From assembly GCA_021734475.1 (NCBI GenBank), contig JAIPIU010000001.1, positions 186,001 to 250,000 of the forward strand: DNA of 64,000 nt, written 5' to 3'. A program made the position numbers and the translations under genes. The notes under the pieces were generated by a model. It saw only the letters and a program-made list of their open reading frames with translations. It ran no database searches and was not told the origin of the DNA. This document shows, piece after piece, positions 2,029 to 61,455 of this stretch (position 1 is its first letter; every line of letters starts with the position of its first letter). The DNA is from Candidatus Altimarinota bacterium. GTDB taxonomy: Bacteria > Patescibacteriota > Gracilibacteria > Absconditabacterales > Absconditicoccaceae.

Positions 2029-2385
2029 ATGATAAGTGTTGGAATAATATTTATTACGCTAGCTCTAGTACTTTATACTACAGCTGTATGGACAGAAAAG
2101 ATTAAAAAGAAACTTCAATTGTGGATTGTACTTACTTTTGCTTCAGGTTTTATTTGCGATTTGATAGGTACATCTATAATGTTCTCTGTAGCAGAACATA
2201 AGTTTTCTTTAGCTCTACATTCCATATGTGGTTATCTAGCATTGATAATCATGTTCTTGCATCTCATCTGGGCAATTCTTTCGATCAGAAAAATTGGAAG
2301 ATACGAAGAATATTTTACAAAATTTTCTGTATTTGCCTGGTGTATCTGGCTAATAGCCTTTATAAGTGGAATTCCACAACAGTAA
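2029..2385 (+). CDS. HsmA/TIGR03987-like small membrane protein (UGA-free)
   Basis: 118 aa with four hydrophobic segments and charged tips, lying 6 bases after the CoA fusion gene. Length and pattern (EKIKKKLQLW, FICDLIGT, LHSICGYLAL, WLIAFISG) agree with the HsmA family of small inner-membrane proteins known mainly from standard-code bacteria. Function is unknown. It contains no in-frame UGA: all Gly are GGN and Trp is UGG, whereas the gene just upstream uses UGA for most Gly. This points to recent acquisition. It is probably cotranscribed with its upstream neighbour. Confidence 0.6.
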   Translation: MISVGIIFITLALVLYTTAVWTEKIKKKLQLWIVLTFASGFICDLIGTSIMFSVAEHKFSLALHSICGYLALIIMFLHLIWAILSIRKIGRYEEYFTKFSVFAWCIWLIAFISGIPQQ

Positions 2386-2408
2386 AAACAAAATAAAAGG
2401 AAATTTTA

Positions 2409-2938
2409 TGACAAACAAAGAAAGAATTCAAGATTTGATGAACAATGGTTCATTAGAAGTTCTTCTAAAACTTTTCACTAAAATTATCGGTAAAGATGCT
2501 TTAGATGGAAAAAATGGAGGCTATTTCACTATTCAGTATCTTGACGAAAACAACACAGTTATTTCAAAAAAGCTAAATAGCATTTTAGCAGAAAAAAAAG
2601 AGAAATATCGTTGCCTTTCGACAGAAAAAGCCTCTCGATTAAAAAGAAATCTTACTACTGGTCATTTAACTAGTTATGAATCCAGAAACCCCGAATCAAC
2701 AGTGATTATAGAAAAAGGAAGAATCGAAAACTGGGGCCATTGGGGTGGAGCAGTATTAATTAACAAAAACTTCATATTTTCTTTCTCAGGATTTCCTGAG
2801 TTGGTAGATGAAGCATTTGTTTGTTTTCTTGGATTTAAATCAGGACTAATGTCCAAATGCCAATTAGGGATTATCAAAAAAAGAAGGATAGATAATCCTT
2901 ATCTTGATATTATTTATCAAGAGTTAACTAAGAAATAA
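2409..2938 (+). CDS. Hypothetical 176-aa protein (UGA-free)
   Basis: I do not recognise the family. The chosen ATG at 2409 follows a weak Shine-Dalgarno-like AAAGGAAA; an ATG at 2366 is in frame but overlaps the previous gene. The protein is soluble-looking, with a basic N-terminal half and a Gly/Trp-rich central stretch (ENWGHWGGAVL) followed by FSFSGFPELVDEAF. No UGA codons occur, and Gly is encoded by GGN only, as in the upstream small membrane protein. The two may form one imported pair, followed by a strong terminator. Confidence 0.55.
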
Positions 2939-2997: not shown

Positions 2998-5562
2998 TTA
3001 AGATCTTAAAGTAGCTCATACCTTTTCTACAGCTTTTATAGCTTTGTTCATTACTTCATTTATCTGTTCTGTAGTCATATTTTCTCCTAATATCTTCATC
3101 TTAAATGCTATGGATTTTTTTCATTCAGGGAGATTAGTTCATTTATATAGGTCAAAAACTTCTATATCTCATATTTCTTTTATAGCTTTGACAGCATCCA
3201 ATATTTCACCAAAGTCTTTATTTATATCAGTCACAAAACAAAGATCTCTATAAACTATCTGATCTTGCAAAGTTTCATAAGTATAATTTATTTCTCCTAT
3301 ATTTGATATTAATTCCAATAACATATCCAAACTCAAAGAAATATATACCAATCATGCATTTTCAGAAACTTTCTGTGATTTTAAAATCACTGGATGTAAA
3401 GCTCATACAAATCAGATTTTTTTCTTTTCTTTTCCTACTCGATAGAGTATATCAGATTGTTTATTTGGATGATAAGAACTATTGGAAGTTTTTTCATAAA
3501 CTAATTTTACATTTATTCAAAGTTCTTTTAATATAATATCAACAAAACTCTTTGCATCCAATATAGGATCATTACTTCGATCTTTAATATCTTTTTTAAA
3601 TATCATCATACCAATTTCTCCACTTTCTCATACAAATGACGATGCATATTTTTCATCATTGCTTGTCATTCCGGCGTTGTTGTTTGCAGCCGGAATCTTA
3701 TTTTTCTTTCGCACCCTTCCTATATCAAACATTCTAAATTCATCGAAAAACTTAGAATTTTTAGCTCCCAAAGATAATAAATTATAAACCAAACTATCTC
3801 TCATATATGGAGCATCAGGAACAACTGGATTTTGTAATGAATACAAATTATTTTTATCTATGTTAAATAATGATACAGTTTTATCAGATATCCATGGATA
3901 AGTTTCTACTTGATCAAAATTCAGATTTTTTACTGCTATATCTTCTAATTTTCTTTGAAGTCATACATATCAGCTATATTCTACATTATTTACCTCAGTC
4001 ATTAGAGGGGAATTTTCTATTGTTTCATAACCATATATTCTCGCTACTTCTTCATAAATATCTTCACTAATATTAATGTCATCAGGAGACCTCCAAATAG
4101 GAACTACAAGATTATCTTGATTTACTATAAATCCCAATCCTTCAAGTACTTTTTTTGCATCATTTTCAAAATTTTCTATTTCTTTACCAAAAATAAATTT
4201 TTCCATTTTTTTATAATCTATTTTTACTTCTTTGAGTTTTTTACTTTTTTCTTTTAGCTTATTACTAATATAATAATCCAATCATCACATATCAAAACTT
4301 CATAAATCTTTGGAATAATATTTCAATTCATCCAAAAACAGAATCAAACAATAAAGGCTAAATAATGGATTAATATTTTTTTCATATCTAAGCTCTGCAT
4401 CAGTTCTTAGACCGAGTCTCGTTCATGTTTTTCTAACAGATACTGGATCAAAATTAGCAATCTCTACAATAATATTTTTTGTATTTTCATTTACTCAACT
4501 ATCCAAACCTCAAACAACTCATGCAAGAGCTAATATTTTTTTCTTATCTGCTATTACAAGATCACTAGATTTCAATTCATGTTCTTTCTCAAATAGATCT
4601 ACAAATTTTTCACCATCATTAGCATTTCTAATTATTATATCACCATCTACCTTAGTAGCATCAAAAAAATGTATAGGTTGTCAGCTAATATTCATAAATA
4701 AATTAGAAAAATCTACTCGATTATTGATAGGATTAGATCATAAATCTATCATTTGTAATCTAGTAAAAAAATCTGATTTTTTTATTTGAATATTATTCAA
4801 TTCCAATAATATATATGTATTTAATGAATCAGATTCTCAAATTACTTTTCTTTCTGATTTTTTACTATTATCTAATATCTCAAAAATATTTTGATCTGTA
4901 AATTGCTTCATATAATCTTTAATTTTATTGAATGATATTTTCTCATTTCACATTTTTCATTTCACATTTCAAATTTCAGAATACATAGCATTCAATTCTA
5001 TGGCAGTTCCAAAATGTCATGTCAGATCAGGTCTATTAGTCAATCATTTATTATCTACATCAAAAGTATAACTTTCCAACCATGGATATTTTTTATTCAA
5101 AGCTATTCATAAATCTTTTTCATTTACATCATCAAAATCTTCAACTAAATCTCGTATAGAATGTAACTCTATATCCTCATTTATTCATAATTCTTGTTTT
5201 GAACATATCATTCCATTGGATTCTATTCATCTCATATTTCTTTTCTCTATAGTTATTCCAGCTTTTTCAAAAACAGTTCCAGGTAGAGCAGTAGGGACAA
5301 AAATTCATTCTCTTACATTGGATCATCCACAAATAATTTGATATTCTCATTCATCTCCACAATCCACTTCACATACATTAAGTTTATCTGCATCTGGATG
5401 TTTGTAACATTTGTTCACATATCATATTACAATAGAATCAGAAATTTTTCTATTTTCAATCTCTTCTATTTCACAAGTCTTTAATATCAATTTATCAGCA
5501 ATGTTTTCTGGACTATCATCTACAGAAATAAATTTTTTTAATAGAATTTCACTATATCTCAT
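2998..5562 (-). CDS. pheT: Phenylalanine-tRNA ligase beta subunit
   Basis: 854 aa read with UGA=Gly. The N-terminus has the tRNA-binding EMAP-like fold (VNKCYKHPDADKLNVCEVD, then IICGGSNVREG). The central B3/B4 and B5 regions follow, then the catalytic-like module (FDIGRVR), and the C-terminus is the anticodon-binding FDX-ACB-type domain. It works as an alpha2-beta2 complex with PheS, which is not in the window. ATG at 5562 is the only start before an in-frame stop. Oddity: about 12 residues near position 622-633 come from an in-frame copy of a dispersed palindromic repeat, located in a loop after the GRV motif. Confidence 0.93.
3664..3697. repeat. Palindromic repeat (CATTCCGGC family) inserted inside pheT
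   Basis: The element begins TGTCATTCCGGCG and ends GCCGGAATC. An inverted copy with the same ends lies at 53361-53399, and a diverged copy at 34524-34590. Here it lies inside pheT without breaking the frame and contributes the residues KIPAANNNAGMTS. Its GC content is far above the surrounding gene. Confidence 0.75.
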
Positions 5563-22806: not shown

Positions 22807-23043
22807 TTAGAATAGTTTAATTAATGCAGATATTCCTTGAATCAAAATCAATATCCAACAAATTTCCATTAAACCAAACCATCCCATTAAACATTTCTCA
22901 ACATAGCTAAGACTATTAAATATGCCTAAATCAATTCTTGAACTTATTCCATTATCATATCTAAGTCCAAAAACAGCGACCACAATAGTCATTACAAAAC
23001 TCAATGAGAAAAAAAACAAGATGAATGCAAAATAAGCTGACAT
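22807..23043 (-). CDS. Small two-helix membrane protein (UGA-free)
   Basis: 78 aa with an N-terminal membrane span (residues 3-24) and a C-terminal one (about 52-75), joined by a polar link. No family recognised. It has its own promoter and terminator, uses GGN for Gly and has no UGA. It is thus a monocistronic UGA-free unit like those at 24.5-27.9 kb. Confidence 0.6.
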   Translation of the reverse strand: MSAYFAFILFFFSLSFVMTIVVAVFGLRYDNGISSRIDLGIFNSLSYVEKCLMGWFGLMEICWILILIQGISALIKLF

Positions 23044-23201: not shown

Positions 23202-23933
23202 ATGTTAAGTATCAAAAACCTTTCAGTCCAAATAGAAAATAAACATATACTCAAAAATATAAATCTGACTTTTGAACTATGAAAAAACTATTGCATATTG
23301 GGCAAAAATTGATCATGAAAATCATCACTAGCTATGACTATTATGTGACATCCTAAATATCAAATTAAAAAATGAGAATGTGAAATTCAGAATTGAAAAG
23401 AAAAAATCAATCTCTTAGATCTAGATCCAAATGAAAGAGCAAAATTAGGTATATTTTTAGCCTTTCAACATATCCCAGAAATCAAGTGAGTAAAAGTTTT
23501 TGAATTTCTTAGATCAATCTATGATGCACAAAACGATTCTCACACTTCTTTTATTCAATTCAAAAAAATAATTGAACCATTTTTACTAGAATTAAATATT
23601 GATAAAGAGTTTCTTCGAAGAGATCTCAATGTATGATTTAGTGGGGGAGAGAGAAGAAAACTCGAAATATTACAACTCAAATTACTCAAACCTAAATATA
23701 TCTTTTTAGATGAAATAGATTCCTGATTGGATGTAGATGCTTTCAAATCAGTAGCAAATATGATAAAAGAATTGAATAATAAAAATAATTGTTTCATTAT
23801 TATTACACACTATTTCACTATATTAGATTATATTCAAGTTGATCGAGTGTATGTATTGGATAAATGAGAACTAAAAAAAGAATGACTTGCTGAAATAGCC
23901 CATGAAATAAAAGAAAAATGATTTAATAAATAA
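23202..23933 (+). CDS. sufC: Fe-S cluster assembly ATPase SufC
   Basis: 243 aa. Walker A LGKNGSGKSS with both key glycines of GSG-type positions partly encoded by UGA; AFQHIPEIKG is the SufC Q-loop; FSGGERRKLEILQ is the ABC signature; Walker B YIFLDEIDSGLD; THY switch. It powers the SufB scaffold in Fe-S cluster assembly. Its partner sufB lies 4 kb downstream, beyond a deaminase and a UGA-free island. No sufD, sufS or sufU is visible. Confidence 0.94.
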
Positions 23934-23941
23934 TATTTTTT

Positions 23942-24427
23942 ATGAAATATGTAACTTGAGAAGAATTAGAGACAGTTAATCATTTTTTAAATTTAACAAA
24001 AGAAATAGCTAAACAAGCTACTTGTCTTCGTGATAAGTGCGGAAGTATAATAGTAAAAGATAATAAAATAATATGATCGGGATTTAATAGCCCACCAAAT
24101 AATCAAGAAAATCAAAGAAGATGTAATTGTGATAAATCCACTTATCATCCAAAGATAAAAGATACAACTTGTTGTATCCATGCAGAACAAAGAGCAATTA
24201 TGGATGCACTCAAAAACAATCCTAATAAAATAATTTGAAGTAGATTGTATTTTGTTAGACTTAATAGCTATTGAAATATAAAGCCATCAGGCAAACCATA
24301 TTGCACAATTTGTAGCAAAATGACTTTAGATTCATGAGTATCAGAATTTGTCTTATTACACCTAGAATGAGCATGTATATACGATACAGACGAATATAAT
24401 ACATTATCTTTTTCTTACAATAACTAA
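23942..24427 (+). CDS. Cytidine/deoxycytidylate deaminase-like zinc protein
   Basis: 161 aa. CIHAEQRAI supplies the zinc His and catalytic Glu, and PYCTICSKM supplies the two Cys ligands (PCxxC variant). KCGSIIVKDNKIIGSGFNSPP is the usual N-terminal strand-turn. The closest role would be dCMP or tRNA/nucleotide deamination. Extra Cys near CNCDKSTYHP recall the ComEB/dCMP-deaminase type. It starts 8 bases after sufC, so they are likely cotranscribed. Confidence 0.8.
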
Positions 24428-24448: not shown

Positions 24449-24477
24449 TAAAAAAAAGGTGCACGTAAAACGCACAC
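24449..24477 (-). terminator. Terminator of the 150-aa membrane protein gene
   Basis: Minus strand GGTGTGCG-TTTTA-CGTGCACC followed by T7. Confidence 0.75.
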
Positions 24478-24492
24478 CAATAATTTTTTCAT

Positions 24493-24945
24493 TTACTTGG
24501 TTTTGGCATATATTACCAACTTCAAAGCTTTGGCTAAAAAAGATATAGCAAATGCAATAAAGAAAGCAAAGATACCCCATCCAATATAAACAAATTTATT
24601 AATCATAATTTCAGAAACCAAATTTCTTGGAAGGAATAATTGTCCAAAGGAAAAAATAAATGATAATAAGGATATAAACAACAATACAAAGATACCCCAA
24701 AAAGACATTGAGCTTGATAATCGCTTATACTTAGCAATTACAATTTCCGGACCAATCTCTTTCATTATCCTTTCCATTTTTGAAAAGACAATCGCTGCAA
24801 GTATTAATGTTGTAATGGTCAAAACAATATATGGCCAAAACAGATTCATATAAACATTTACATCAAAGACAATAAATGTTATATGTACCAATAATAATGA
24901 GGCACAAACTGAAACCCAAAAGAAATTCTTCTGTAACTTTTCCAT
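24493..24945 (-). CDS. Four-helix membrane protein (UGA-free island gene 1)
   Basis: 150 aa with four clear membrane segments (about 10-28, 36-55, 78-98, 120-142) and a basic helix between the second pair (MERIMKEIG...KYKRLS). No family recognised. No UGA codons; Gly is GGN and Trp is UGG. It has its own promoter (24980-25007) and terminator. Confidence 0.65.
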   Translation of the reverse strand: MEKLQKNFFWVSVCASLLLVHITFIVFDVNVYMNLFWPYIVLTITTLILAAIVFSKMERIMKEIGPEIVIAKYKRLSSSMSFWGIFVLLFISLLSFIFSFGQLFLPRNLVSEIMINKFVYIGWGIFAFFIAFAISFLAKALKLVIYAKTK

Positions 24946-24979
24946 TTTCGTAAATTTTTGTTAATTTTTATTTTAAAAA

Positions 24980-25007
24980 CTTATAATTATTTAATACAAA
25001 AAGTCAA
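24980..25007 (-). promoter_or_regulatory. Promoter of island gene 1
   Basis: Minus strand TTGACT (25002-25007), 16-base spacer, TATAAG (24980-24985). It begins directly after the T run of the upstream unit's terminator. Confidence 0.75.
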
Positions 25008-25008
25008 T

Positions 25009-25040
25009 AAAAAAAGCCAGACCCAAATAAAGATCTGACT
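25009..25040 (-). terminator. Terminator of island gene 2
   Basis: Minus strand GTCAGATC..GGTCTGGC hairpin with T7, abutting the next promoter. Confidence 0.7.
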
Positions 25041-25061
25041 TCTATAATAATTTTTTTCTGC

Positions 25062-25646
25062 TTAATTTGTGATAGTGAGTATTACCGTAGGTTTCAAAGT
25101 ATTGTCTTCGAAATCGTATAACGGAGCACCACTAAATTTTAAATTCCATGCACCGGCAGATACTTTGTATCCAAATAATGGACCTACACCATATTGTCGC
25201 CTGGCCATTGCTCCTACTGATATTTTCGAATACTCGTAAGTAAACGAGTTCGTATACCAGTAGTTGTCATCACCTGATCCAATTTCCCACAATGAAAAGA
25301 AAACAATACTTTTGGTTGAATCATTTCCAATCTGTGGAGCAAATTTGATCCAAGGAGAGATACGAAATGACCATTTATCCAACTGCTCAACGCCAGGACC
25401 TATACCAAAGTACAGTGAACCTACATTGTAATTTAGATAAACAAAGCCTTCATTCCATCCAGTTGTAGTAGCGAAATAGGGCGCTACGCTAAAACCACCT
25501 TTTACAGTCTGTTCCCATGTAATTTGGGTAAACGGGATAGTTGTTTTCCCGACTGGAAAACGAAAGTCCTGCTCCAGCATTACAAATTGGCTGAAAGCCG
25601 GAATAGCCATAAGGCTTACAATCATAATAACAAAAAATTTCTTCAT
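25062..25646 (-). CDS. Secreted beta-barrel-like protein (UGA-free island gene 2)
   Basis: 194 aa. The N-terminus MKKFFVIMIVSLMAIPAFSQ is a clear signal peptide of the type common in Bacteroidota (cleavage after FS/Q). The rest alternates polar and aromatic residues (SLYFGIGPGVE, WSFRISPWIKFAP, YEYSKISVGAMARRQYG) and ends in a strand, like a small outer-membrane porin. Such a barrel is unexpected in this lineage. No UGA codons. It may be surface-located or derived from a diderm donor. Confidence 0.6.
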   Translation of the reverse strand: MKKFFVIMIVSLMAIPAFSQFVMLEQDFRFPVGKTTIPFTQITWEQTVKGGFSVAPYFATTTGWNEGFVYLNYNVGSLYFGIGPGVEQLDKWSFRISPWIKFAPQIGNDSTKSIVFFSLWEIGSGDDNYWYTNSFTYEYSKISVGAMARRQYGVGPLFGYKVSAGAWNLKFSGAPLYDFEDNTLKPTVILTITN

Positions 25647-25674
25647 AATACATTTATTTTTATTTATACAATAC

Positions 25675-25702
25675 TTTATAATTATTTACAATTAAATGTC
25701 AA
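25675..25702 (-). promoter_or_regulatory. Promoter of island gene 2
   Basis: Minus strand TTGACA (25697-25702), 16-base spacer, TATAAA (25675-25680). Confidence 0.75.
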
Positions 25703-25703
25703 T

Positions 25704-25730
25704 AAAAAAACAGCCTCAAAAAGAAACTGT
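25704..25730 (-). terminator. Terminator overlapping the end of island gene 3
   Basis: Minus strand ACAGTTTC-TTTTT-GAGGCTGT with T7. The UGA that ends island gene 3 (25716-25718) lies inside this hairpin. Confidence 0.75.
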
Positions 25731-26312
25731 CTTAAATTCTCTAAATTTTATAAGACTCAATACTATAGCCTGCAAAAACAATGACCGCAATGGTTGTATC
25801 AAAGACCAATAATCACTATAATGAGACAAAACCGTAATCAGATTAAATATAGTTGCTATTGATATTATCATCCATGGACCAAAAGGTTCTTTACCTTTCC
25901 CATCATACACACCCCATATCAAGGGAATATATACAATTGTATTTAATATTTGCATCGTTACATGCACTTCTTTTAAGTTTGTAAACAAAAGCAAAAGAAT
26001 AATAAATACAGATCCAGCAATTACGATCAATATATCTCTTTTTAGTAATATATAATTTTTATGAACTATAATCACTATCAAGACATATACATTTACAGCA
26101 GTTCCTATAAAGAGTAGAGATGACTTGAAATAATCCAAAACAAGCAAATGATAAGTCACAGTATTGATAATAGCAATCAATGTCCATAGACTTATTACAA
26201 CAAGATTTGGTTTAGAATTTTGTTTTTTAGTTTCTTTACTATACCACAGCATACCTACAACAATAAGTAATATTGATAGTAAAGCTGAAGAAACATAAAT
26301 AAAGTCTCTCAT
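25716..26312 (-). CDS. Multi-span membrane protein ending at UGA (UGA-free island gene 3)
   Basis: 198 aa with six or seven membrane segments. It is homologous in length and pattern to the gene at 51058-51636: both start with a span and a short polar turn, then KPNL/TPNL, then INTVTYH / INAFTFH. No known function. No internal UGA. Its first stop in the reading frame is UGA at 25716-25718, within its own terminator hairpin. Read as Gly, the frame would run seven more codons through the T run and the next -35 box to a TAA at 25692. The homologue ends at the equivalent point with TAA, so UGA is probably the ancestral stop. Confidence 0.65.
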   Translation of the reverse strand: MRDFIYVSSALLSILLIVVGMLWYSKETKKQNSKPNLVVISLWTLIAIINTVTYHLLVLDYFKSSLLFIGTAVNVYVLIVIIVHKNYILLKRDILIVIAGSVFIILLLLFTNLKEVHVTMQILNTIVYIPLIWGVYDGKGKEPFGPWMIISIATIFNLITVLSHYSDYWSLIQPLRSLFLQAIVLSLIKFREFKTVSF

Positions 26313-26331
26313 ATTTTTTGTTTTTTATCAC

Positions 26332-26357
26332 ATTATATATTTATCACAAAAAGTCAA
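26332..26357 (-). promoter_or_regulatory. Promoter of island gene 3
   Basis: Minus strand TTGACT (26352-26357) with TATAAT (26332-26337); the spacer is 14 here, shorter than the usual 16. Confidence 0.55.
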
Positions 26358-26358
26358 T

Positions 26359-26387
26359 AAAAAAACAGCTTTCAAAAAGAAAGCTGT
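26359..26387 (-). terminator. Terminator of island gene 4
   Basis: Perfect minus-strand hairpin ACAGCTTTC-TTTTT-GAAAGCTGT and a T7 run, immediately followed by the next promoter. Confidence 0.85.
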
Positions 26388-26408
26388 CTTATAAAATATC
26401 AAAACCTT

Positions 26409-26951
26409 TTAGTCAAATTCAAATACAAGATTTTCCAAATAATTACCAATCATTGGATCATGATAAAAATAATTATAATTACCCACAACCCCTTCAATCT
26501 TTATATTCAAATCATGACTATATGTTTTCAACATATAAGGAATCTTTTTTGATTCTGAAATCATAAATCCATGTTCAAAATACTCGCTATAGTATTTATC
26601 CTGCTTAAATTCTACCAAAGCTATCCTATCAATTATAGTATCAATACCTAATTTTAATAGAACAGAATTAAGGTAATTCTCAGGCAAATCAAATGGATCG
26701 GTATAAAAATTATTTTCTTTGAAATCATCGAGATCAAAAACCTCAAAAGAAATTTTTTCAACTTTCGCGACTTCTTTTTCTTCTTGATTTGTACAAGATG
26801 TAAGACAAATCCCACAAACCGCAATAATTGCAAATAAGCAGCCAAACCATGAAGTCAGAATATTGAAACGAAAAATAACTTTTTCCCATTTTTTTGTTTC
26901 AGTAGAAAAACCATTAGTAACCTCTACAAACCGATTGATTAAATATTTCAT
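26409..26951 (-). CDS. Membrane/lipobox-leader protein A (UGA-free island gene 4)
   Basis: 180 aa. Residues 1-55 are nearly identical to the leader of the neighbour at 27053-27826: a basic helix with STETKKWEK, one membrane span and a lipobox-like LTSC near residue 52. The rest is an acidic extracytoplasmic domain (FEVFDLDDFKENNFY, DPFDLPENYL) without recognised fold and unlike that of the neighbour. If the lipobox is used, the leader is far longer than a normal lipoprotein signal, so a membrane anchor is equally possible. No UGA codons. Confidence 0.6.
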   Translation of the reverse strand: MKYLINRFVEVTNGFSTETKKWEKVIFRFNILTSWFGCLFAIIAVCGICLTSCTNQEEKEVAKVEKISFEVFDLDDFKENNFYTDPFDLPENYLNSVLLKLGIDTIIDRIALVEFKQDKYYSEYFEHGFMISESKKIPYMLKTYSHDLNIKIEGVVGNYNYFYHDPMIGNYLENLVFEFD

Positions 26952-26974
26952 TTTATTAGATTTTTGTTTTATTA

Positions 26975-27002
26975 TTTATAACTATTTAATACAAAAAGTC
27001 AA
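26975..27002 (-). promoter_or_regulatory. Promoter of island gene 4
   Basis: Minus strand TTGACT (26997-27002), 16-base spacer, TATAAA (26975-26980). Confidence 0.75.
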
Positions 27003-27035
27003 TAAAAAAAAGACAATCCTGAAAACAGAATTGCC
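27003..27035 (-). terminator. Terminator of island gene 5
   Basis: Minus strand GGCAATTCTG-TTTT-CAGGATTGTC and a T8 run, abutting the promoter of island gene 4. Confidence 0.8.
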
Positions 27036-27052
27036 CTATAAAATTTTAAAAT

Positions 27053-27826
27053 TTACAATCGAAATAAATCAGCCAAATAAGGAATGTAAGATTTTTTCTT
27101 TAATCTTTTTGTATCATCATTTCCCTCATATTCATAGAGAATTAGTCTGCTGATATCACGAATCTTAATTTGACAAGTACTAGTTTCAACAAAGATAAGT
27201 TCATCATCAGTAACCGAATTACTATTTAGTTGAGTTTGTTCTGCATATGCAAATGGACTGCCTGATATATTTTTAATATATATCGTTATATATCCATCTT
27301 CGTCATACTTCAGCAGATTTAATTCAAACCCATCAACCTCAATAGGATAGTAATAACTTCCACAGACCTTTCTTACGTTCATTGTATGGAGCGGTGCACC
27401 AAGAGGAGTAGATATATTAATATTAACCAACAAATGCCAATCTTGGGCTTTATCATAATCCTGGTCAGTCAAAATATATACATCATCTTTTCTGTTCCAA
27501 ACATTATAATTCACCTCACCAAATTCCACAATTCCATTCTGATGATTCAATCTTTTGAAGAGATACCCATACTCCGATTTGATCAAACTAATTGATTGAC
27601 CACACTCAAGTTCATCAATTTTAGCATGAACTTTAAGCTCGGTATTTTTCATTGCTTCCTGATCTGTACAGGATGTAAGACAAAGTCCACAAACTGCAAT
27701 AATAGCAAACAAGTAGCCAAACCATGAAATCAGAACGTTGGAACGAAAAATAATTTTTTCCCATTTTTTTGTTTCAGTAGAAGAGTCTTTTGTAAACTCT
27801 ACAAACCATTTAACTAATTTTTTCAT
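27053..27826 (-). CDS. Membrane/lipobox-leader protein B (UGA-free island gene 5)
   Basis: 257 aa. Same leader as the 26409-26951 protein (STETKKWEKIIFR, a span ending IIAVCGLCLTSC), then a different, larger ectodomain of about 200 residues with beta-rich character (VEVDGFELNLL-like, GYITIYIKNISG). No family recognised. No UGA codons; stop TAA. Shared leader plus diverged exterior suggests a modular surface-protein family. Confidence 0.6.
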   Translation of the reverse strand: MKKLVKWFVEFTKDSSTETKKWEKIIFRSNVLISWFGYLFAIIAVCGLCLTSCTDQEAMKNTELKVHAKIDELECGQSISLIKSEYGYLFKRLNHQNGIVEFGEVNYNVWNRKDDVYILTDQDYDKAQDWHLLVNINISTPLGAPLHTMNVRKVCGSYYYPIEVDGFELNLLKYDEDGYITIYIKNISGSPFAYAEQTQLNSNSVTDDELIFVETSTCQIKIRDISRLILYEYEGNDDTKRLKKKSYIPYLADLFRL

Positions 27827-27851: not shown

Positions 27852-27879
27852 TTTATAATTATTTTAAATTAAAAGTCAA
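27852..27879 (-). promoter_or_regulatory. Promoter of island gene 5
   Basis: Minus strand TTGACT (27874-27879), 16-base spacer, TATAAA (27852-27857). Confidence 0.75.
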
Positions 27880-27955: not shown

Positions 27956-29341
27956 ATGAATTTTAAATCAGTATTAGAATCTTCAGATAAAATCAAATAT
28001 GATCTCTATCTACAATGACTTACAGAAACGACTGTAAGAGCTATTTCACAAGATCAAAACGAACCAGAATGGATGCTAAAACATCGTCTAAAATCATTAG
28101 AAATATTCAATAATATGCCAATGCCAAATCGATGACCAAGTCTGGATTGATTAGATTTTGATGAAATAGTTTATTATGCCAAACCTTCTCAAGAAAGCGA
28201 ATGATATGCTACCGACCGAGAAGATGTAGATCCTGAAATTAAAAAAAAATTTGAAAGACTCTGAATACCAGAAGCTGAAAGAAAATATTTAGCCTGAGCG
28301 GGAGGGCAGTATGACTCTCTCAATGTTTATCATAAAATCAAACAGCAGCGATCAGATAAATGAATTATTTTTGAAGATATGCCACAGGCTTTACATACAC
28401 ATCCTCAGTTGGTTCAGAAATATTTCATGAAACTAGTTCCTGCTACAGATCATAAATTTGCAGCTCTTCATGGCGCAGTTCGAAGTGGATGAACATTTAT
28501 CTATGTCCCCAAATGAATTAAACTCGACGAACCATTGCAAGCATATTTTCGTATGAATACTTATGCAGGAGGGCAGTTTGAACATACACTGATTATTATA
28601 GATGATGATGCTCAGTGAAATTATATAGAATGATGTTCTGCACCCAAATATGACAAAGCATCTCTCCATGCAGGTCTGGTTGAGGTTTTTGTTTGAAAAA
28701 ATTCTCATATGAAATATTCATCAGTCGAGAATCGATCAACCAATACTTATAATCTCAATACCAAGAGAGCACTACTAGAAGAAAGTTCTTATATGGAACG
28801 AGTAAACGGTAATATGTGATCTTGTACTACTATGCTTTACCCTTGTTCTATACTCAAATGAGATAATTCCAAAACTGATTTACTTGGAATCGCTGTTGCT
28901 TGAAAATGACAAAATCAAGATACATGATCCAAAGTTATTCATATATGAAAAAATACATCTTCCACTATAGTTTCCAAATCAATATCCAAAGACTGATGAA
29001 TAGCTACATATCGTGGTTTAGTAAAAATAGCTCCACAGGCAGATAATTCTGTAAATTCAACAAATTGCGATGCTCTGCTTTTAGATAATATTTCAATAAG
29101 TAATACTATTCCTGATATTGTATCAGATAATGATAGTTCTATAGTAGCTCATGAAGCAAGCGCATGAAAAATAGATGAATCAGAAATGTTTTATCTCATG
29201 GCAAGGTGATTGGATCAAGAAAGAGCAATGTCTATGATAGTAAATTGATTCTTTTCTTCTGTAGTAAAAAAGTTACCATTGGAATATGCAGGTGAGCTAA
29301 ATAAATTGATAGAATTAGAAATGGAAGGATCTGTATGATAA
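27956..29341 (+). CDS. sufB: Fe-S cluster assembly scaffold SufB
   Basis: 461 aa, usual length. Seen: [109 protein letters not shown]. Together with SufC it assembles Fe-S clusters. No SufD paralogue is present, so a minimal SufBC system with a SufB homodimer is plausible. Separated from sufC by the UGA-free island. Confidence 0.96.
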
Positions 29342-38671: not shown

Positions 38672-39073
38672 ATGAAAAAAATTCTTAATAGCTTATTTGG
38701 TTTAAGTGTATTGTGATTATTATGACTATCTACTTTTTGACTTGTAAATGCTCAAAACACTTACGGTACAACATTCTGAGATTCATCAGCCGCTTGAAAT
38801 ATATGAGTTGCATGAGCTTGAGTAGATCAATGAGATAAATTAGTAACAAGTGTAAAAACATTTATCAATCGAGTACTATGAATATTAGCTCTTATCACAT
38901 TAGTTATACTTCTTCGAGGATGATTCCAAATGGTTACTGCTGCATGAGACGACACTAAATACAAATCATGATTCAAAATTCTTAAACAAGCTTGATTTGG
39001 ATTGGCTTTCATATGATTAGCATGGTTAATTGTAAGTATGATATTTCGAGTCATATGATTAGTGACTGCTTAA
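38672..39073 (+). CDS. VirB2/TrbC-like pilin
   Basis: 133 aa. Signal peptide (about residues 1-30, ending VNA-Q), then a mature two-span protein with a basic loop between the spans: FINRVLGILALITLVILL, RGGFQMVTAAGDDTKYKSG, LIVSMIFRVIG. This matches type IV secretion major pilins that are common in candidate-phyla bacteria and may serve adhesion or DNA uptake. Monocistronic, with own promoter and terminator. Confidence 0.7.
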
Positions 39074-45317: not shown

Positions 45318-46478
45318 ATGAAAAAAACAATCTGAATTTTATTAAGTGCTACAATAACATTATTTGCACTTAGTGGATGTACAAATACATCTACACAAAC
45401 AAAAACACAAACAAAACCAACAGTAAAAGTATGAGTAATAGCTCCCTTATCATGACCATGAGCAGCATACTGAGAAGATGTTGTCAATACATATAAATAT
45501 ACTCTAGAAAAAATGAAACAAGAATGAAAGATGAAAGATTACGACCTTGAATTTATATATGAAGATGGAAAATGTAATTGAAAAGATGCTACATCTGCAG
45601 CTCAAAAATTAGTTACAGTAGATAAGGTAGATATGGTACTTGGATGAATTTGTTCTGCTGAAACATTAGCAGCTGCCAAAGTAGCCCAAGCTTATCAAGT
45701 TCCTATTTTATCACCAGCATCTAGCTCTCCAGAAATCAGTAAATTTGGAGAATGAGTATGGAGATTTTATTCAGATATCAATCAAGCCAATTTAGTAGCA
45801 TGATATCTAAATGATAAAGATTCACAAAATATAGCATTATTATATGAAAACACAGATTACGCAGTAGATTATATCAAAACATTCAAAACTCTCTACAAAT
45901 GAAATGTATTGATAGATGAAAAAATAAATGGAGATGAAAGAGATTTCTGAATAATTGCAAAAAAAATTGCAAAAGAAATTCAGACTTTAGATGCCGTTAT
46001 TATGATCAATTGAGGAACAGATTCTCTAATTATATGAATAATAAATAAATTTGATCAAGAATGAGTTCTACAAAATTTCAAATGAGAATTTATGTGATCA
46101 GATACATTATTTTCATCAAGTATATTAGATGCAGTATGATCAAAAATGGAATGATTTCTATGAGCAACTTTACCAGATGATCGAAGTACATATGGATCCA
46201 AGGTAGAATCTATGATGAGTGAGTTCAAAACACAATACGGTATCAAATGAGTAGATTTCTATATCATATTATATCAAGAAGCTATCAATCTTTTAACAGA
46301 TATGTTTGATGCTGGTAATCTTGATTCACAGTCTATTTGAGCTTATTTAAAATTGATTGATCAAGAAAATCCTAGAGAATGATATTTTTGAAACTATTAC
46401 TTTCAATGAACAGATGCACAATGACTAAACTTTGTATTCAAAAAAATAGTTAATGGTAAACCAGAATTTATAAAATAA
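45318..46478 (+). CDS. Branched-chain amino-acid ABC transporter substrate-binding lipoprotein 1
   Basis: 386 aa. Lipoprotein signal with lipobox LSGC (about residue 21), then a Thr/Gln-rich linker and a type I periplasmic-binding fold (VKVGVIAPLSGPGAAYGEDV, YEDGKCNGKDATSAAQKL, GGICSAETLAAAKVA, LSPASSSPEI). LivK/Peripla_BP_6 family. Ligand unknown. Upstream of a second copy and of livH, livM, livG. Confidence 0.88.
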
Positions 46479-46486
46479 ATCTAATG

Positions 46487-46561
46487 TACCCCTTTGTAAA
46501 AGTGAAGTGAAGCGAAATTCCGTAAAGCGGGAGAATGGAGGTACAAAGTACCAGAGGATTT
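46487..46561. repeat. Composite dispersed repeat after the first livK
   Basis: ACCCCTTTG..arm, interrupted by a GAAGTGAAGCGAAATTCCG module, then the GGAGGTACAAAGTACC and AGAGGATTT tail. It looks like one family member with a second element inserted. Confidence 0.65.
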
Positions 46562-46595
46562 ATACATCATATTTTTTAATTCTTAATTCAAAAAA

Positions 46596-46787
46596 ATGCC
46601 TTGATTTAAAATAATAGAAGATTCAATCAAACCAGAATACTTAGAAAAAATCAAAAAGAATATATCAGAAATAAAAAAATGAACTAATAAATTCAAAGAT
46701 GAAATTTCACAAACTTTAGAACAACAATTCTGAATCAAACCAAATCTAGAAGATCCTAGATTGTCTGAGTCAGCTAAACAAATTTAA
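46596..46787 (+). CDS. Hypothetical 63-aa helical protein in the liv locus
   Basis: Single predicted amphipathic helix (EYLEKIKKNISEIKKG, DEISQTLEQQFGIKP), three UGA-Gly codons. No family recognised. It lies between two binding-protein genes on the same strand and may be cotranscribed. Confidence 0.5.
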
Positions 46788-46812
46788 TTTATTATTTAAT
46801 TTAAAATTACAA

Positions 46813-47958
46813 ATGATTTATACTAAAAGTAAAAAAACACTAACTTTAATACTTGGTTTATTTGTATTGTCTACACTTACTGCATGTACAATAGATAGTC
46901 AAACTTCAGAGATTAAAACAATTAAAATTTGAGTAATTGCTCCTATGTCTTGACCATGAGCTAGTTACTGAGAAGATGCTGTTAATCTATACAAATATAC
47001 AATAGATAATTTTAACAACAATCAAAAAAAAGTTAAGATTGATCTAATAATAGAGGATTGAAAGTGTTCCTGAAAAGACGCCACATCTGCAGCTCAAAAA
47101 CTAATCACAATAGATCAAGTAGATCTAATACTATGATGAATGTGTTCTTCTGAAACATTAGCAGCTGGTAAATTAGCTCAAGATAACAAAACATTACTAT
47201 TATCTGCTATATCTAGTGCTCCAGAGATTTCATATATGTGAGACTATATATTTAGATTCTATAGTGACAATCAAACAGCTGAAGTATTGGCAAACAATCT
47301 ACGACCAGAAATCAAAACAATAGCATTACTTACTGAAAATACAGATTATGCTATAGCTTTAAATAAAAAATTCAAAGAAGTTTATCCTTGAGAAATAATA
47401 GTAGAAGAAAAATTCAATTCTGACGAAAAAGACTTTGATCTAATGATAAATAAATTGATATGAAAAGATTTCGAAGCTTTGGTCTTGATAAATCAAAGTG
47501 AAAGTACAGCTATCAGTATACTCAAATCACTAGATAATAAATGATTATTAGAATCTCTAAGATGAAAAATTTATGGACAATTTCTTTGTTCTTCACAAGC
47601 ATTCTTGGATTGAGCATGAGATTTAGCAGAAGATATGATATGTACTGATGTACCATTATTAGAAACCTTAGATCAAAAATCTACTGACTATATCAATGAA
47701 TTCAAAAAAATTCACACAATCAATGCTTTTGATAGTCGAATAGCTTATCAACAAGAAGCCGCTGATATGGTTTTTGAAGCAATATTAGACTGAAATTATG
47801 ACAGTACATCTATCAGAGATTACCTAGTAAAAATAGACAAAAACCACCCAAGAAAATGATATTTATGAGAAGTATATTTCGATGAAAATTGAGATATAGT
47901 TTGACTAAATGCTATCATGGAAAGGGTAGTAAACTGAAAAGTACAAATCATCAAATAA
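46813..47958 (+). CDS. Branched-chain amino-acid ABC transporter substrate-binding lipoprotein 2
   Basis: 381 aa, paralogous to the protein at 45318: lipobox LTAC, IGVIAPMSGPGASYGEDAV, EDGKCSGKDATSAAQKL, GGMCSSETLAAGKLAQ. The two diverge in the second half, so they may bind different ligands and feed the same permease. Confidence 0.88.
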
Positions 47959-51057: not shown

Positions 51058-51636
51058 ATGTCAGAAATATTAGGAATTTTAGCCAGCATTTTGTTATTAT
51101 TTGCTGGAATATTTATTCTAATCCAAGTAAAAAGTGGATTATCTACGCCCAATTTAACTACTTGGTTTGTAAATCTATGCGTAGGTACGATCAACGCATT
51201 TACATTTCACCAAGTTGTTAATTCCAATATATATCAAAGTCTGATTATGTTCATGAGTTTACTCACTCTCTTGCTAATATTTTTTTATACTATGAGCAAG
51301 GGTAAATTCGCAAAACTAGATCGACTTGATATAATACTATTTGTACTCGCAATATTTGTGGGTATAGTATGGAAACTCACAGATGATAGATTGGCTAATT
51401 TTTTGGTACAGATAGTCATCTTTATAGCAAACTCTGCTACCATCATAGGCCTATGGCAAAAGAAACTACGAGAATATTATATTCCATGGCTCTTTGCTGT
51501 ATCTGCTTATCTTGTAGCTATCACAGGTCTTATGCTTAGTTCCAATACAGATTACTTAGCTTACTTTGGCCCAATTCTAAATGGAATCATAGCCAATGGC
51601 TTAATCTTAATTATTTCATCAAAAACAAAAAACTAA
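51058..51636 (+). CDS. Multi-span membrane protein (UGA-free operon gene 1)
   Basis: 192 aa, about six spans. Homologous to island gene 3 at 25716-26312 (TPNL after the first span, TINAFTFH, similar length). Strong Shine-Dalgarno GGAGG eight bases before the ATG, unlike the native genes here. No UGA codons; stop TAA. First of four tandem UGA-free genes. Function unknown. Confidence 0.65.
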   Translation: MSEILGILASILLLFAGIFILIQVKSGLSTPNLTTWFVNLCVGTINAFTFHQVVNSNIYQSLIMFMSLLTLLLIFFYTMSKGKFAKLDRLDIILFVLAIFVGIVWKLTDDRLANFLVQIVIFIANSATIIGLWQKKLREYYIPWLFAVSAYLVAITGLMLSSNTDYLAYFGPILNGIIANGLILIISSKTKN

Positions 51637-51642
51637 AACAAA

Positions 51643-52461
51643 ATGGAAAATTTAACTAAAACTATGCTACTGACTTCTAGTATAAAAATAGATACCGAAG
51701 AAGTCATTACCAAGCTCGAAAAAAATGCTTTGGAAGCGATCAATATCCAAGCATTTAAAAATAATTGGCAAAAATACAAAAAAACCCGAGTCACAAAAAG
51801 ATGGATTGTTTTTGGAATTCTCGTTGTATTGATGATAATTACAGATCTAATAGTATGGAAAGAATATTTAGCTCCAGATCAAGTCATGCCACAGCTAAAT
51901 AAAATACTTTTCATAGTATTTATACCAACCATTATATTTGGTCTCATTCACATACTTATTTACGGTCTATTCTTAGAAAAAGAACCAAGAGAACTAAAAA
52001 ATTTTCAAGATATAAATTCAGCTTTCAAAGAAGAAACTCAAAATTTAATAACAGAAACTCAAATAAAAATCTATGCAAAGGTTCTAAAATCAATATTTTC
52101 TGATCTCGATATAAATTTTGAAGAAAAGCTAAAATATAATATCGAATCTTGTTCAGAAAAAAGGGAGATTAAAGATAATGAATATTCATATCTATCTAGA
52201 TTTATTGAAAATGATCTTCCCAGTTATTTCGATTCTTTCTTTAGATATAAATGGGAATGGATTTTTTCAGAAAGAACAATACTTATTGTAGAACCAAAAT
52301 CTATTATCGATCATAAATCAATTTATATTCAAAAAATATTTCTCAACGAAGATAACTTGGTTTGTATATTACTAGAGGGAGAATTAATCGATAGTCAATT
52401 TGCTGGATTTGATTCAGAAAAAATTTTGTCAAAAGAATATATCAAAATTTGGAAAGGATAA
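51643..52461 (+). CDS. Two-span membrane protein with large cytosolic-like domain (UGA-free operon gene 2)
   Basis: 272 aa. A basic N-terminal helix (LEKNALEAINIQAF), two spans (about 55-72 and 88-108), then a mixed alpha/beta domain ending SKEYIKIWKG. No family recognised. Six bases after gene 1, no UGA codons. Confidence 0.6.
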   Translation: MENLTKTMLLTSSIKIDTEEVITKLEKNALEAINIQAFKNNWQKYKKTRVTKRWIVFGILVVLMIITDLIVWKEYLAPDQVMPQLNKILFIVFIPTIIFGLIHILIYGLFLEKEPRELKNFQDINSAFKEETQNLITETQIKIYAKVLKSIFSDLDINFEEKLKYNIESCSEKREIKDNEYSYLSRFIENDLPSYFDSFFRYKWEWIFSERTILIVEPKSIIDHKSIYIQKIFLNEDNLVCILLEGELIDSQFAGFDSEKILSKEYIKIWKG

Positions 52462-57175: not shown

Positions 57176-57181
57176 AATATG

Positions 57182-57253
57182 AGCGCCCAAAAGGACTCGA
57201 ACCTCTGACGACCTCCCCGGAAGGAAATGCTCTACCAACTGAGCTATAGGCGC
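57182..57253 (-). tRNA. tRNA-Gly(UCC), most likely
   Basis: 72 nt cloverleaf: acceptor GCGCCTA/TGGGCGC, D arm GCTC..GAGC, T arm AGAGG-TTCGAGT-CCTTT, no encoded CCA. The discriminator U73, pairs G1-C72, C2-G71 and C35-C36 match bacterial tRNA-Gly identity. The anticodon arm is irregular: ATTTC-CTTCCGG-GGAGG gives a 7-nt loop with UCC but a mismatched first pair, while TTTCC/GGAGG gives five pairs and a 6-nt loop; Arg(CCG) is the alternative. It would read GGA/GGG, not UGA. Confidence 0.75.
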
Positions 57254-59596: not shown

Positions 59597-59959
59597 TTAT
59601 AGAAATCTAATTTCTTTTAACTTGTTTTCATGTCCATTGCAAACCCAAACTTCATTATCTTTGACTGCAAACTGACATTTTGAACCATAAATGATAAGAT
59701 ATTTAATTTTCTGATCGCAACAAGCTTCTATAAAAAATTCTTTTACCTTATCATTTTCAAATATCAGTTCAACTTTTTTGGATCCTTGAAACTTAAACGT
59801 ATCCAAATAAATAATTAATCCAGGAGATCCCTGTGCTTCAAAGGCAGCATCAATAGCGTCCAATTCAATAGAAATCGAAATATCATCACTAGATATAAGG
59901 ATTTGAGCACTACCAGTACTTGCATAAATAATAAACAAAATAGCCAACAACTTTTTCAT
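59597..59959 (-). CDS. Small secreted protein (UGA-free)
   Basis: 120 aa. Signal peptide MKKLLAILFIIYASTGSAQ, then a small alpha/beta domain with two vicinal Cys (EACCDQK) and two further Cys. No family recognised. Own promoter and terminator, no UGA codons, TAA stop. Same style as the 24.5-27.9 kb island although 32 kb away. Confidence 0.6.
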   Translation of the reverse strand: MKKLLAILFIIYASTGSAQILISSDDISISIELDAIDAAFEAQGSPGLIIYLDTFKFQGSKKVELIFENDKVKEFFIEACCDQKIKYLIIYGSKCQFAVKDNEVWVCNGHENKLKEIRFL

Positions 59960-60129: not shown

Positions 60130-61455
60130 ATGAAGAAAAATAAAAAATTATTTGTATTGGATACCAACGTTATCCTATACGATTCATCATGCATTTACAA
60201 TTTCAATGAGCACGATATTGTTATACCTCTATGTGTAATAGAAGAACTCGATTCCTTCAAAAAAGGAAATAATTTAAATTCCTTCCATGCTCGTGAATTT
60301 ATTCGAAAAATAGATGGATTAGATGACAAATTATTTAATGGAGGAGCCTCAATTAGAGAAGGTAATGGAAAAATATCTCTAGCTACAGATGTATCTCTAC
60401 ATGAAACAGTCAAAAAAAGTTTCTCAGTAGATATTATTGATCATAGAATATTATCTATTACTTTAAGACTCACAGAAGAAAGACAAAAATCAAAAGAAGA
60501 AGTAATTTTAGTTAGTAAAGATACAGATCTAAGATTAAAAGCTAAATCTCTTGGTATAAATGCTGAAGATTATCAACACGACCAAGTTGATTTAGCTCAT
60601 CTCTATTCAGGAATATTTGATTTTAGAGAAGTTTCTGACGAAGAAGTTCATAATCTTTATAGCAAACCAGAGAGAGAAATTGAATGGAATCCTTCAAATC
60701 ACGGACTAACTCTTTATCCAAATCAATGTGGTATAATAGGTAGTTCAAACACTAATTCAACTGCACTAGTAATATACAAAGATAATATATTAACTAGAGT
60801 AGAGAAATGGGCTAAAGTTAAAGGACTAAAACCTAGAAATGCCGAACAAACTTTCGCTCTCCATCTACTATTAGATAGAAATATCTCATTAGTAACTCTA
60901 AATGGTATTGCTGGAACAGGCAAAACACTAATGGCCTTAATCGCTGCTATAGATCAGATTAAACATTATTCCCATATCTATGTAGCCAGACCAGTAGTAG
61001 CTTTGGAAAACAAAGATATCGGATTTTTACCAGGTGATATTGATCATAAATTAGGACCATTTATGCAACCTATTTATGATAATCTATCTGTGATAAAAGC
61101 AAAAGATGCAAAATGGAGAGAGACAATTTTAAGATTGGAAAAAGAAAAACAAATTTCCATTGAAGCTTTAAGTTTTATCCGTGGCAGAAGTATTCCAAAC
61201 TCTATTATCATAATAGATGAAGCTCAAAATCTCACTCCACATGAAGTCAAAACAATTATTACTCGTGCTGGAGAGGGTAGTAAAGTTATTTTTACTGGAG
61301 ATATCCATCAGGTAGATACACCATATCTTGATTCCAAATCAAATGGATTATCTTGTCTGATCGAAAAAGCCAAAGGAGCTGCTCATTATGGTCATGTGAC
61401 TATGGTAAAAGGGGAAAGAAGTCCATTATCAGAATGGGCTGCTAATACTTTATAA
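60130..61455 (+). CDS. PIN-PhoH ATPase fusion (UGA-free)
   Basis: 441 aa. Residues 1-150: PIN RNase domain (FVLDTNVILYD, VIEELDSFKKG, LVSKDTDLRLKA). Residues about 230-441: PhoH P-loop ATPase with Walker A LNGIAGTGKTL, YVARPVV, LPGDIDHKLGP, Walker B SIIIIDEAQNLTP and TGDIHQVDTP. PhoH2-type proteins couple helicase and RNase activity. The whole long gene has no UGA and uses GGN only, in sharp contrast to ligA and infB on either side. Own promoter and terminator. Confidence 0.93.
   Translation: MKKNKKLFVLDTNVILYDSSCIYNFNEHDIVIPLCVIEELDSFKKGNNLNSFHAREFIRKIDGLDDKLFNGGASIREGNGKISLATDVSLHETVKKSFSVDIIDHRILSITLRLTEERQKSKEEVILVSKDTDLRLKAKSLGINAEDYQHDQVDLAHLYSGIFDFREVSDEEVHNLYSKPEREIEWNPSNHGLTLYPNQCGIIGSSNTNSTALVIYKDNILTRVEKWAKVKGLKPRNAEQTFALHLLLDRNISLVTLNGIAGTGKTLMALIAAIDQIKHYSHIYVARPVVALENKDIGFLPGDIDHKLGPFMQPIYDNLSVIKAKDAKWRETILRLEKEKQISIEALSFIRGRSIPNSIIIIDEAQNLTPHEVKTIITRAGEGSKVIFTGDIHQVDTPYLDSKSNGLSCLIEKAKGAAHYGHVTMVKGERSPLSEWAANTL

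Follow-up and report, generated by a model that had tools for sequence, protein, structure and literature searches.

A cluster of UGA-free genes inserted in the suf locus of a UGA-glycine genome belongs to a resident gene class kept in the standard code

Five genes without in-frame UGA were found between sufC and sufB in a genome (G000) whose genetic code is code 25 (UGA=Gly, Gracilibacteria type). They lie in a stretch of 64,000 nucleotides, the window, to which all coordinates refer. The data are well explained if this array forms one cluster within a distinct resident gene class that the bacterial family keeps strictly in the standard code. The class is older than the split between G000 and another species of the same genus (G001), is under purifying selection, excludes UGA-Gly and is organized as single self-contained units.

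In the 363 kb of the genome that were counted, UGA represents about 71% of the Gly codons. A tRNA with a UCA anticodon is present, and a search for RF2 in six genomes gave only RF1-level matches. The distribution of UGA use is bimodal and empty between 0 and 10%, and the UGA-free genes form a set scattered in the genome. Their codon usage is non-native and the avoidance extends past UGA, the fraction of Ile codons that are ATA being.26 in G000 and.30 in G001 against.57 and.55 in native genes. High expression was rejected as the cause of the missing UGA, since the native ribosomal protein genes use this codon freely.

The array is encoded on the minus strand. As described in the initial annotation, its five genes are free of in-frame UGA up to their standard stops, while the native genes beside them, all on the plus strand, use this codon: sufC (23202-23933, 12 UGA), a dCMP/cytidine deaminase family protein (23942-24427, 6 UGA) and sufB (27956-29341, 24 UGA), the last having homologs rich in UGA across most of the family. 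The product of g1 (27053-27826, stop TAA) is a membrane-anchored or lipoprotein-like protein of 257 aa with an LTSC motif near residue 53 and distant lipoprotein relatives in other genera, and g2 (26409-26951, 180 aa) is a paralog of its N-terminal part. The g3 gene (25716-26312) encodes a multi-helix membrane protein of 198 aa, g4 (25062-25646) a beta-rich exported protein of 194 aa with a Bacteroidota-style signal peptide (AFSQ), and g5 (24493-24945) a membrane protein of 150 aa. The fold predicted for g4 is all-beta but unreliable (pLDDT 31), and a GTDB-wide scan resting on two short patterns gave two relatives only, both inside the family. No known family was detected for the five proteins and none has a Por_Secre_tail C-terminus above cut-off, a domain that is found in other members of the class. 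The standard stop of g3 is itself a UGA (25716-25718), located within the terminator hairpin of the gene, so that code 25 adds eight residues, gives the ending GGCFFIDI and reads on to 25692. This UGA at the terminator is kept in four genomes of two genera (G000, G001, G043 and G032).

Comparison of the sufC-sufB interval in relatives revealed the array genes without UGA in some genomes and the two suf genes side by side in others, so that neither finding named beforehand as contrary to the proposal was made. sufC directly adjoins sufB in G043 and G013 and the two overlap slightly in G015 and G047, which identifies the array as an insertion splitting the suf locus, as had been proposed. UGA-free genes adjoin sufB in the same-genus genomes G001 and G002, and other UGA-free genes occupy this position in G027, G035 and G031. 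The suggested stepwise build-up is compatible with the direct repeat of 204 nt (80%) shared by g1 and g2, with the absence of g2 from G001, and with the replacement of g5 in G001 by a protein only 29% identical. In the repeat search (22.7-29.5 kb), terminators and promoters were the only repeats between array genes, and the flanking genes include no evident integrase; an integron-like array was tentatively set aside. Contamination or chimeric assembly was rejected, as the same gene order between native UGA-rich genes occurs in independent genomes. On the far side of sufC, a small UGA-free membrane protein (22807-23043, minus strand) corresponds to a UGA-free protein of 83 aa at the same position in G001, with 30% identity.

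Each array gene possesses its own promoter and terminator, all on the minus strand. The promoters are TTGACTTTTAATTTAAAATAATTATAAA for g1 (27852-27879), TTGACTTTTTGTATTAAATAGTTATAAA for g2 (26975-27002), TTGACTTTTTGTGATAAATATATAATG for g3 (26331-26357; read from the sequence, of the same class and one base shorter), TTGACATTTAATTGTAAATAATTATAAA for g4 (25675-25702) and TTGACTTTTTGTATTAAATAATTATAAG for g5 (24980-25007). Seven terminator-like sites were counted against 0.9 +/- 0.9 in shuffles, with hairpin folding z = -4.9 to -6.8. The T runs of the terminators of g1 (27010-27037, z -5.9), g2 (26362-26390, z -6.3), g3 (25707-25733, z -5.2, overlapping the end of the coding sequence and the UGA stop) and g4 (25012-25043, z -6.8) enter the -35 box of the next promoter, whereas the terminator of g5 (24458-24478, z -4.9) closes the row. 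The terminator-promoter junctions reported earlier were thus recovered: at four consecutive junctions TTGAC starts 1-3 bases after the hairpin T run. The 1.17 Mb genome contains TTTTTTTATTGACNTTT five times, four of these copies being located in the array, and the reversed control gave 0. The layout of the array had been regarded as unlike that of the native operons. Own terminators are rarer in native genes (62 of 367) than in UGA-free genes (18 of 24), but the layout is not unique to the array and is usual for the UGA-free genes of the genome. The promoter class is common to these genes and specific to the family; it was not found in four Bacteroidota plasmid stretches, does not match the known Bacteroidota consensus and also stands upstream of UGA-using genes in G015, so that the symbiont probably transcribes the UGA-free genes itself. 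The Bacteroidota promoter type TAnnTTTG was not enriched, and UGA-free and native genes did not differ in Shine-Dalgarno sequences, both classes being without them.

The in-depth comparison concerned two genomes, G000 and G001, with half to two thirds of each covered. The island is also present in G001, at the same position, with g1, g3, g4 and a g5-like gene that are still UGA-free. The g1 orthologs share 69% aa identity (dN/dS 0.25), and g4 is 81% identical to its G001 ortholog (dN/dS 0.074) and 58% to that of G043. All ten UGA-free ortholog pairs (10/10) are syntenic, and none of their 160 shared Gly sites is UGA before the standard stop, the sole UGA pair lying beyond the standard stop of g3. 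The p-values of the comparison treat the sites as independent. In 193 native ortholog pairs, the shared Gly sites are UGA in both genomes 2043 times, UGA in G000 and GGN in G001 582 times, the reverse 389 times and GGN in both 509 times. In native genes both gains and losses of UGA occur and gains are frequent, the probability of UGA in G001 given GGN in G000 being 0.43. The UGA-free pairs have pS values of.42-.73 (native median.57) and dN/dS values of.07-.32 (native.195), in agreement with purifying selection. Between the two genomes, GC4 rises from.186 to.232 in the shared UGA-free genes and from.121 to.192 in native genes; this movement with the genome argues for residence. Among the promoter-driven genes of G001, 4 of 16 have UGA as their stop when read in the standard code.

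These results do not sustain the earlier interpretation that UGA is missing because the genes arrived recently, as the island predates the G000/G001 split and has diverged like native genes. Plain recent horizontal transfer from a standard-code donor, with too little time to gain UGA, would account for the foreign codon usage and the export tags, and may apply to some UGA-free G000 genes for which no counterpart was found in G001. It is nevertheless very unlikely as an explanation of the class. The genes g1, g3 and g4, like seven other shared genes, lack UGA although their synonymous sites are close to saturation, and they stay at zero despite the fast GGN/UGA turnover of native genes, so that lack of time is not the cause. 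For shared genes this reading is already contradicted, barring independent acquisition at identical sites by both species; the shared array genes are neither a recent insertion nor absent from close relatives. They resemble un-ameliorated acquired genes by their foreign codon usage, the export signals of another phylum and their own promoters and terminators, but differ from them by the absence of any intermediate state after such divergence.

Other members of the class were found in the window. A PIN-PhoH protein (60130-61455, plus strand) has no UGA among its 26 Gly codons; the PhoH proteins of G000 and G001 are encoded at the same location but are only 46% identical and do not group as sisters in the tree. 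Two overlapping genes (2029-2385 and 2366-2938, together 2029-2938, plus strand) are syntenic and UGA-free in G001. A gene at 59597-59959 (minus strand) encodes a signal peptide (TGSAQ), has its own terminator and is preceded by the best match to the promoter class in the sequence scanned. Bacteroidota export tags are frequent in UGA-free genes. Of the 49 family genomes, 30 have the type IX sorting tail (PF18962), compared with 12 outside the family in a class sample, and nearly all the genes with this tail are without UGA. One of them, for a protein of 705 aa, is syntenic in G000 and G001, 69% identical and devoid of UGA (0/64 and 0/69 Gly codons), and it keeps the YPNP and G-Y hallmark residues, as in the type IX cargo (Por_Secre_tail) of Bacteroidota. 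Here, however, the tail is found in genes of small recoded genomes, where SprA went undetected (SprA_N 0/49 family genomes, in a search without a working positive control). To judge from the export tags, the class probably originated from a standard-code source, Bacteroidota or a related type-IX-secreting group. In the literature searched, neither a Bacteroidota host for this family nor a paper linking Gracilibacteria, or 'Candidate Phyla Radiation' with T9SS, to type IX secretion was found.

The tags would also be expected from recurrent capture, in which the home of the genes is a standard-code pool (host bacteria) and the symbiont copies are repeatedly re-acquired, or replaced in situ by a homologous or xenologous copy, before gaining UGA. 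The patchy content (g2 absent and g5 swapped in G001), the presence of other UGA-free genes in this suf interval in other genera and the discordant PhoH proteins are in favour of this explanation. We consider it somewhat doubtful, as the pS of the shared genes matches that of native genes, all ten pairs are syntenic, GC4 follows the resident genome, intermediate UGA levels are absent and g4 has no relatives outside the family in the two-pattern scan. Furthermore, no phage, plasmid or viral-contig relatives were found, the phage and viral-contig searches covering g1, g3, g4 and the type IX gene, and a phage or plasmid origin was rejected.

The same searches weigh against mobile or phage-like units that shuttle between standard-code hosts and recoded symbionts and are readable in both, although units made of a gene, a promoter and a terminator resemble phage cargo genes. 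Code-11-compatible phages are published for Gracilibacteria and Absconditabacteria, in which integrated prophages are UGA-rich (PMC10746230). The UGA-free genes share with these phages the lack of in-frame UGA, but the former are resident syntenic chromosomal genes, some of them ending in UGA, and the latter are phage genomes. With vertical and syntenic inheritance, no integrase seen, no repeats beyond the junctions and a terminal UGA that is not bilingual, such shuttling is highly improbable. Immunity-gene arrays of Bacteroidetes are acquired interbacterial defence islands. They too consist of short membrane or lipoprotein genes in a row, and their intergenic sequence is likewise repeated; here no recombinase was seen and no known family detected, and the exclusion of UGA is genome-wide, enzymes included.

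Selection inside the symbiont is another candidate: the genes would be translated only there, in a state or at a level with poor decoding of UGA and of other codons such as AUA, and UGA would be purged from a regulon that has a promoter type of its own. The common promoter class, the codon avoidance beyond UGA and the self-contained units are compatible with this proposal. It is judged unlikely, because ribosomal protein genes use UGA, the UGA stop of g3 would read through in the symbiont and is yet kept across two genera, UGA use is all-or-none rather than graded, and the type IX tails are unexplained where the SprA_N search, run without positive control, detected no type IX machinery.

We tentatively favour, as a possibility well short of being probable, that the class is held in the standard code since it is read by standard-code ribosomes, presumably those of a Bacteroidota host. 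In the simplest case these would be the ribosomes of the partner cell on which the bacterium lives; they would translate the products at least part-time, and UGA would be excluded for this reason. The partner cell would receive genes or transcripts as self-contained promoter-gene-terminator units and would route the lipoproteins, membrane proteins, exported proteins and type IX-tailed proteins to its own envelope. That the symbiont keeps vertically inherited host-code genes because host ribosomes make the proteins and host pathways place them in the host envelope is conceivable, but should be regarded as rather uncertain. Against host reading, the PF10412 model of the conjugative coupling protein, a candidate nucleic-acid transfer route, gave no match in G000, the family-specific promoter class points to transcription by the symbiont, and some members of the class are cytoplasmic enzymes (PhoH and a PurB-like protein).

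A resident gene class that strictly excludes the main Gly codon of its genome appears to be undescribed, and this would hold even if the genes were captured repeatedly or translated in a special state. A codon reassigned genome-wide is a built-in marker of the ribosome for which a gene is written, and genes that avoid it in the long term would indicate the site at which their products are synthesized. Host manipulation by uncultured symbionts would thereby become testable from sequence alone, and for a little-known group there would be molecular evidence hinting at its partner, Bacteroidota.

UGA is decoded as glycine in the genome under study (G000; 1.17 Mb, 97% complete), since in-frame UGA is dense in the native, UGA-using genes of the window, RF2 was absent from the matches in six genomes of the family, where only RF1-level hits were obtained, and C4:42737 encodes a UCA-anticodon tRNA. 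UGA represents 71% of the Gly codons in 363 kb of G000. The code and the kinship suggest a Gracilibacteria-type family. At 57181-57253 (minus strand), both ARAGORN and Rfam detected another tRNA gene, whose anticodon call (cc) is unusual, and the UGA-rich genes include two similar tandem branched-chain amino-acid type ABC binding proteins (45318-47958), followed by a full transporter operon. The five genes located between sufC and sufB, g1 (27053-27826), g2 (26409-26951), g3 (25716-26312), g4 (25062-25646) and g5 (24493-24945), are arranged on the minus strand from 27826 down to 24493 and reach standard stops without in-frame UGA. Each is preceded by a promoter matching TTGAC[TA]TTT..(T)AAATA.TTATAA and followed by a terminator hairpin, and at the four junctions the terminator T run is followed within 1-3 bases by the TTGAC of the next promoter. 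The TTTTTTTATTGACNTTT motif is present in five copies in the genome, four of them in the array, and in none in the reversed control. The initial annotation was thus right in describing a UGA-free row with its own promoters and terminators and T runs leading into the next -35 box at four junctions. None of the five products gave a Pfam match. Judged from sequence, g1 and g2, which duplicate each other in part (80% over 204 nt), resemble anchored lipoproteins, g3 and g5 are membrane proteins and g4 carries an N-terminal Bacteroidota-style signal peptide; the structure model of g4 was not usable.

The array is an insertion between sufC and sufB. The two genes are directly adjacent in G043 and G013 and touch with slight overlap in G015 and G047, which bears out the earlier claim of a split suf locus. 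They are separated by the array and a deaminase gene in G000 and in G001, a second species of the same genus, where the order sufB-[g1, g3, g4, g5-like]-deaminase-sufC and the orientation are those of G000. Present in 42 of the 49 family genomes, sufB is rich in UGA for most family members. UGA-free genes adjoin it in G002 (same genus), and other, different ones lie beside it in G027, G035 and G031. In the genera labelled g19 and g4, UGA-free genes next to sufB are found at L195 470-1383 and 2926-3696, L205 699-1439 and 3000-3293, and L211 3002-3499. UGA-free genes seem to have a hot spot at the suf locus. In the G001 suf locus (L020), terminators at 4503-4545 and 5188-5262 carry CCTGCCTGCCGGCAAAGGCAGG, a repeat-like palindrome.

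The array is not recent. Between G000 and G001, dS was 0.89 for g1 and 0.82 for g3, compared with 0.81 for sufB, 0.79 for the deaminase and 1.04 for sufC; that of g4 (1.61) was above g1, g3 and the native flank genes. The dN/dS values were 0.25, 0.18 and 0.07 for g1, g3 and g4, respectively. With the same island in G001 and dS values of g1 and g3 equal to those of the native flanks, recent acquisition of the array does not hold. Every shared Gly site of g1, g3 and g4 is GGN in both species; native genes of equal divergence swap UGA and GGN constantly.

The array is one case of a wider UGA-free gene class. Orthologs were compared between 600 kb of G000 and 721 kb of G001, two partial genomes, with simple ORF calling. 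In 193 native pairs, 2043 Gly sites were UGA/UGA, 971 mixed and 509 GGN/GGN, and 43% of the GGN sites of G000 native genes were UGA in G001. According to outgroups, native genes both gain and lose UGA; with G002, a small sample gave 23 sites that were putatively GGN in the ancestor, 7 of which had gained UGA. Ten pairs, all syntenic, were UGA-free in both species, with 160 shared Gly sites and no UGA before the standard stop, g3 and g4 being counted only up to that stop. The naive probability of this result is below 1e-30, and about 1e-11 even at 15% gain per site, the sites not being independent. In these pairs pS and dN/dS were native-like, and Ile AUA use was 26-30% vs 55-57% in native pairs. 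UGA use is bimodal: 14 genes of G000 and 20 of G001 have no UGA, and the range from 0 to 10% is empty in both. If genes were gradually ameliorated after transfer, this gap should be filled. Recent transfer is very unlikely. The PIN-PhoH gene (60130-61455) contains no UGA; PhoH, 46% identical between the two species, may have been replaced in place, and 142 shared Gly sites are left without it. Its homologs in 11 other family genomes hold one UGA in total, though just 27-84% identical. A UGA-free gene pair lies at 51058-52461, its first protein g3-like by eye (KPN/TPN...W motif, similar length, helices); no shared copy was found in the searched part of G001.

UGA-free genes are self-contained: a terminator lies within 80 nt of the stop in 18/24 of them vs 62/367 native genes. 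With a promoter matrix built for the most part from array promoters and ones like them, so that training and test sets partly overlapped, matches of at least 20 bits in G000 preceded a UGA-free gene in every scored case, some outside the training set. Independent matrix matches in G001 preceded UGA-free genes in about 10 of 12 cases. The link is weaker in G015, G022, G036 and G037, where native genes share the promoter and 19 of 37 genes behind selected matches were UGA-free. G036 has its own promoter variant, TTGACTTTTTGTAAAAAATGAGTATAA, with many repeats (L166-L177). The motif is abundant in the family and almost missing elsewhere in the class. Shine-Dalgarno sequences are missing from UGA-free and native genes alike. 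A special translation state within the symbiont would be an unlikely explanation. Repeated capture of UGA-free genes from a standard-code pool is somewhat less doubtful. The fourfold-site GC of shared UGA-free genes shifts with the genome between G000 and G001, which argues for residence in these genomes and against refreshing from outside. Shuttling mobile units are the least probable of the explanations weighed.

UGA appears to be kept as a stop. In G000, G001, G043 and G032, the UGA stop of g3 lies inside its own terminator hairpin, and the tails read with code 25 (UGA as Gly) would be unrelated terminator pieces. Under the standard code, 4 of 16 promoter-driven G001 genes stop at UGA, some with a terminator immediately after. 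Export tags accompany the class. In G043, g3, g4 and g5 homologs adjoin a UGA-free protein of 653 aa in which PKD-like and type IX sorting domains occur. The Bacteroidota sorting tail Por_Secre_tail (PF18962) exceeded the cut-off in 30 of the 49 genomes of the family, single-contig genomes included, nearly always in UGA-free genes, compared with 12 non-family genomes in a sample taken across the class. A UGA-free 705-aa Ig-domain protein with such a tail is syntenic in two species (G000:C4:143386-145500; L086:11968-14088); the type IX tail gene syntenic in G000 and G001 shows 69% identity and UGA at 0/64 and 0/69 Gly codons, and its tail is less conserved (51%) with typical residues kept. After the 705-aa gene in G000, C4:145679-148708 encodes a UGA-free 1009-aa membrane protein (0/57 Gly as UGA). 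SprA had no match in the 49 genomes, in a search without positive control, and a literature search turned up no publication that describes type IX tails for these bacteria.

The UGA-free genes constitute a resident, selected gene class staying in the standard code. Tentatively, their translation would fall to ribosomes that use the standard code, presumably those of a Bacteroidota partner; this is the simplest cause that would also account for both the stops at UGA and the export tags. As for a route into such a partner, G000 gave no coupling-protein match, and the shared promoter seems to belong to the symbiont itself; a small UGA-rich protein at 38672-39073, type IV secretion pilin-like by eye (TrbC/VirB2-like), could bear on any such route. 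The nearest published idea concerns Gracilibacteria phages compatible with code 11, for which both recoded and standard hosts have been proposed; the same study reports UGA-rich prophages in these bacteria (PMC10746230). The same standard-code readability is found here, but in vertically inherited chromosomal genes.
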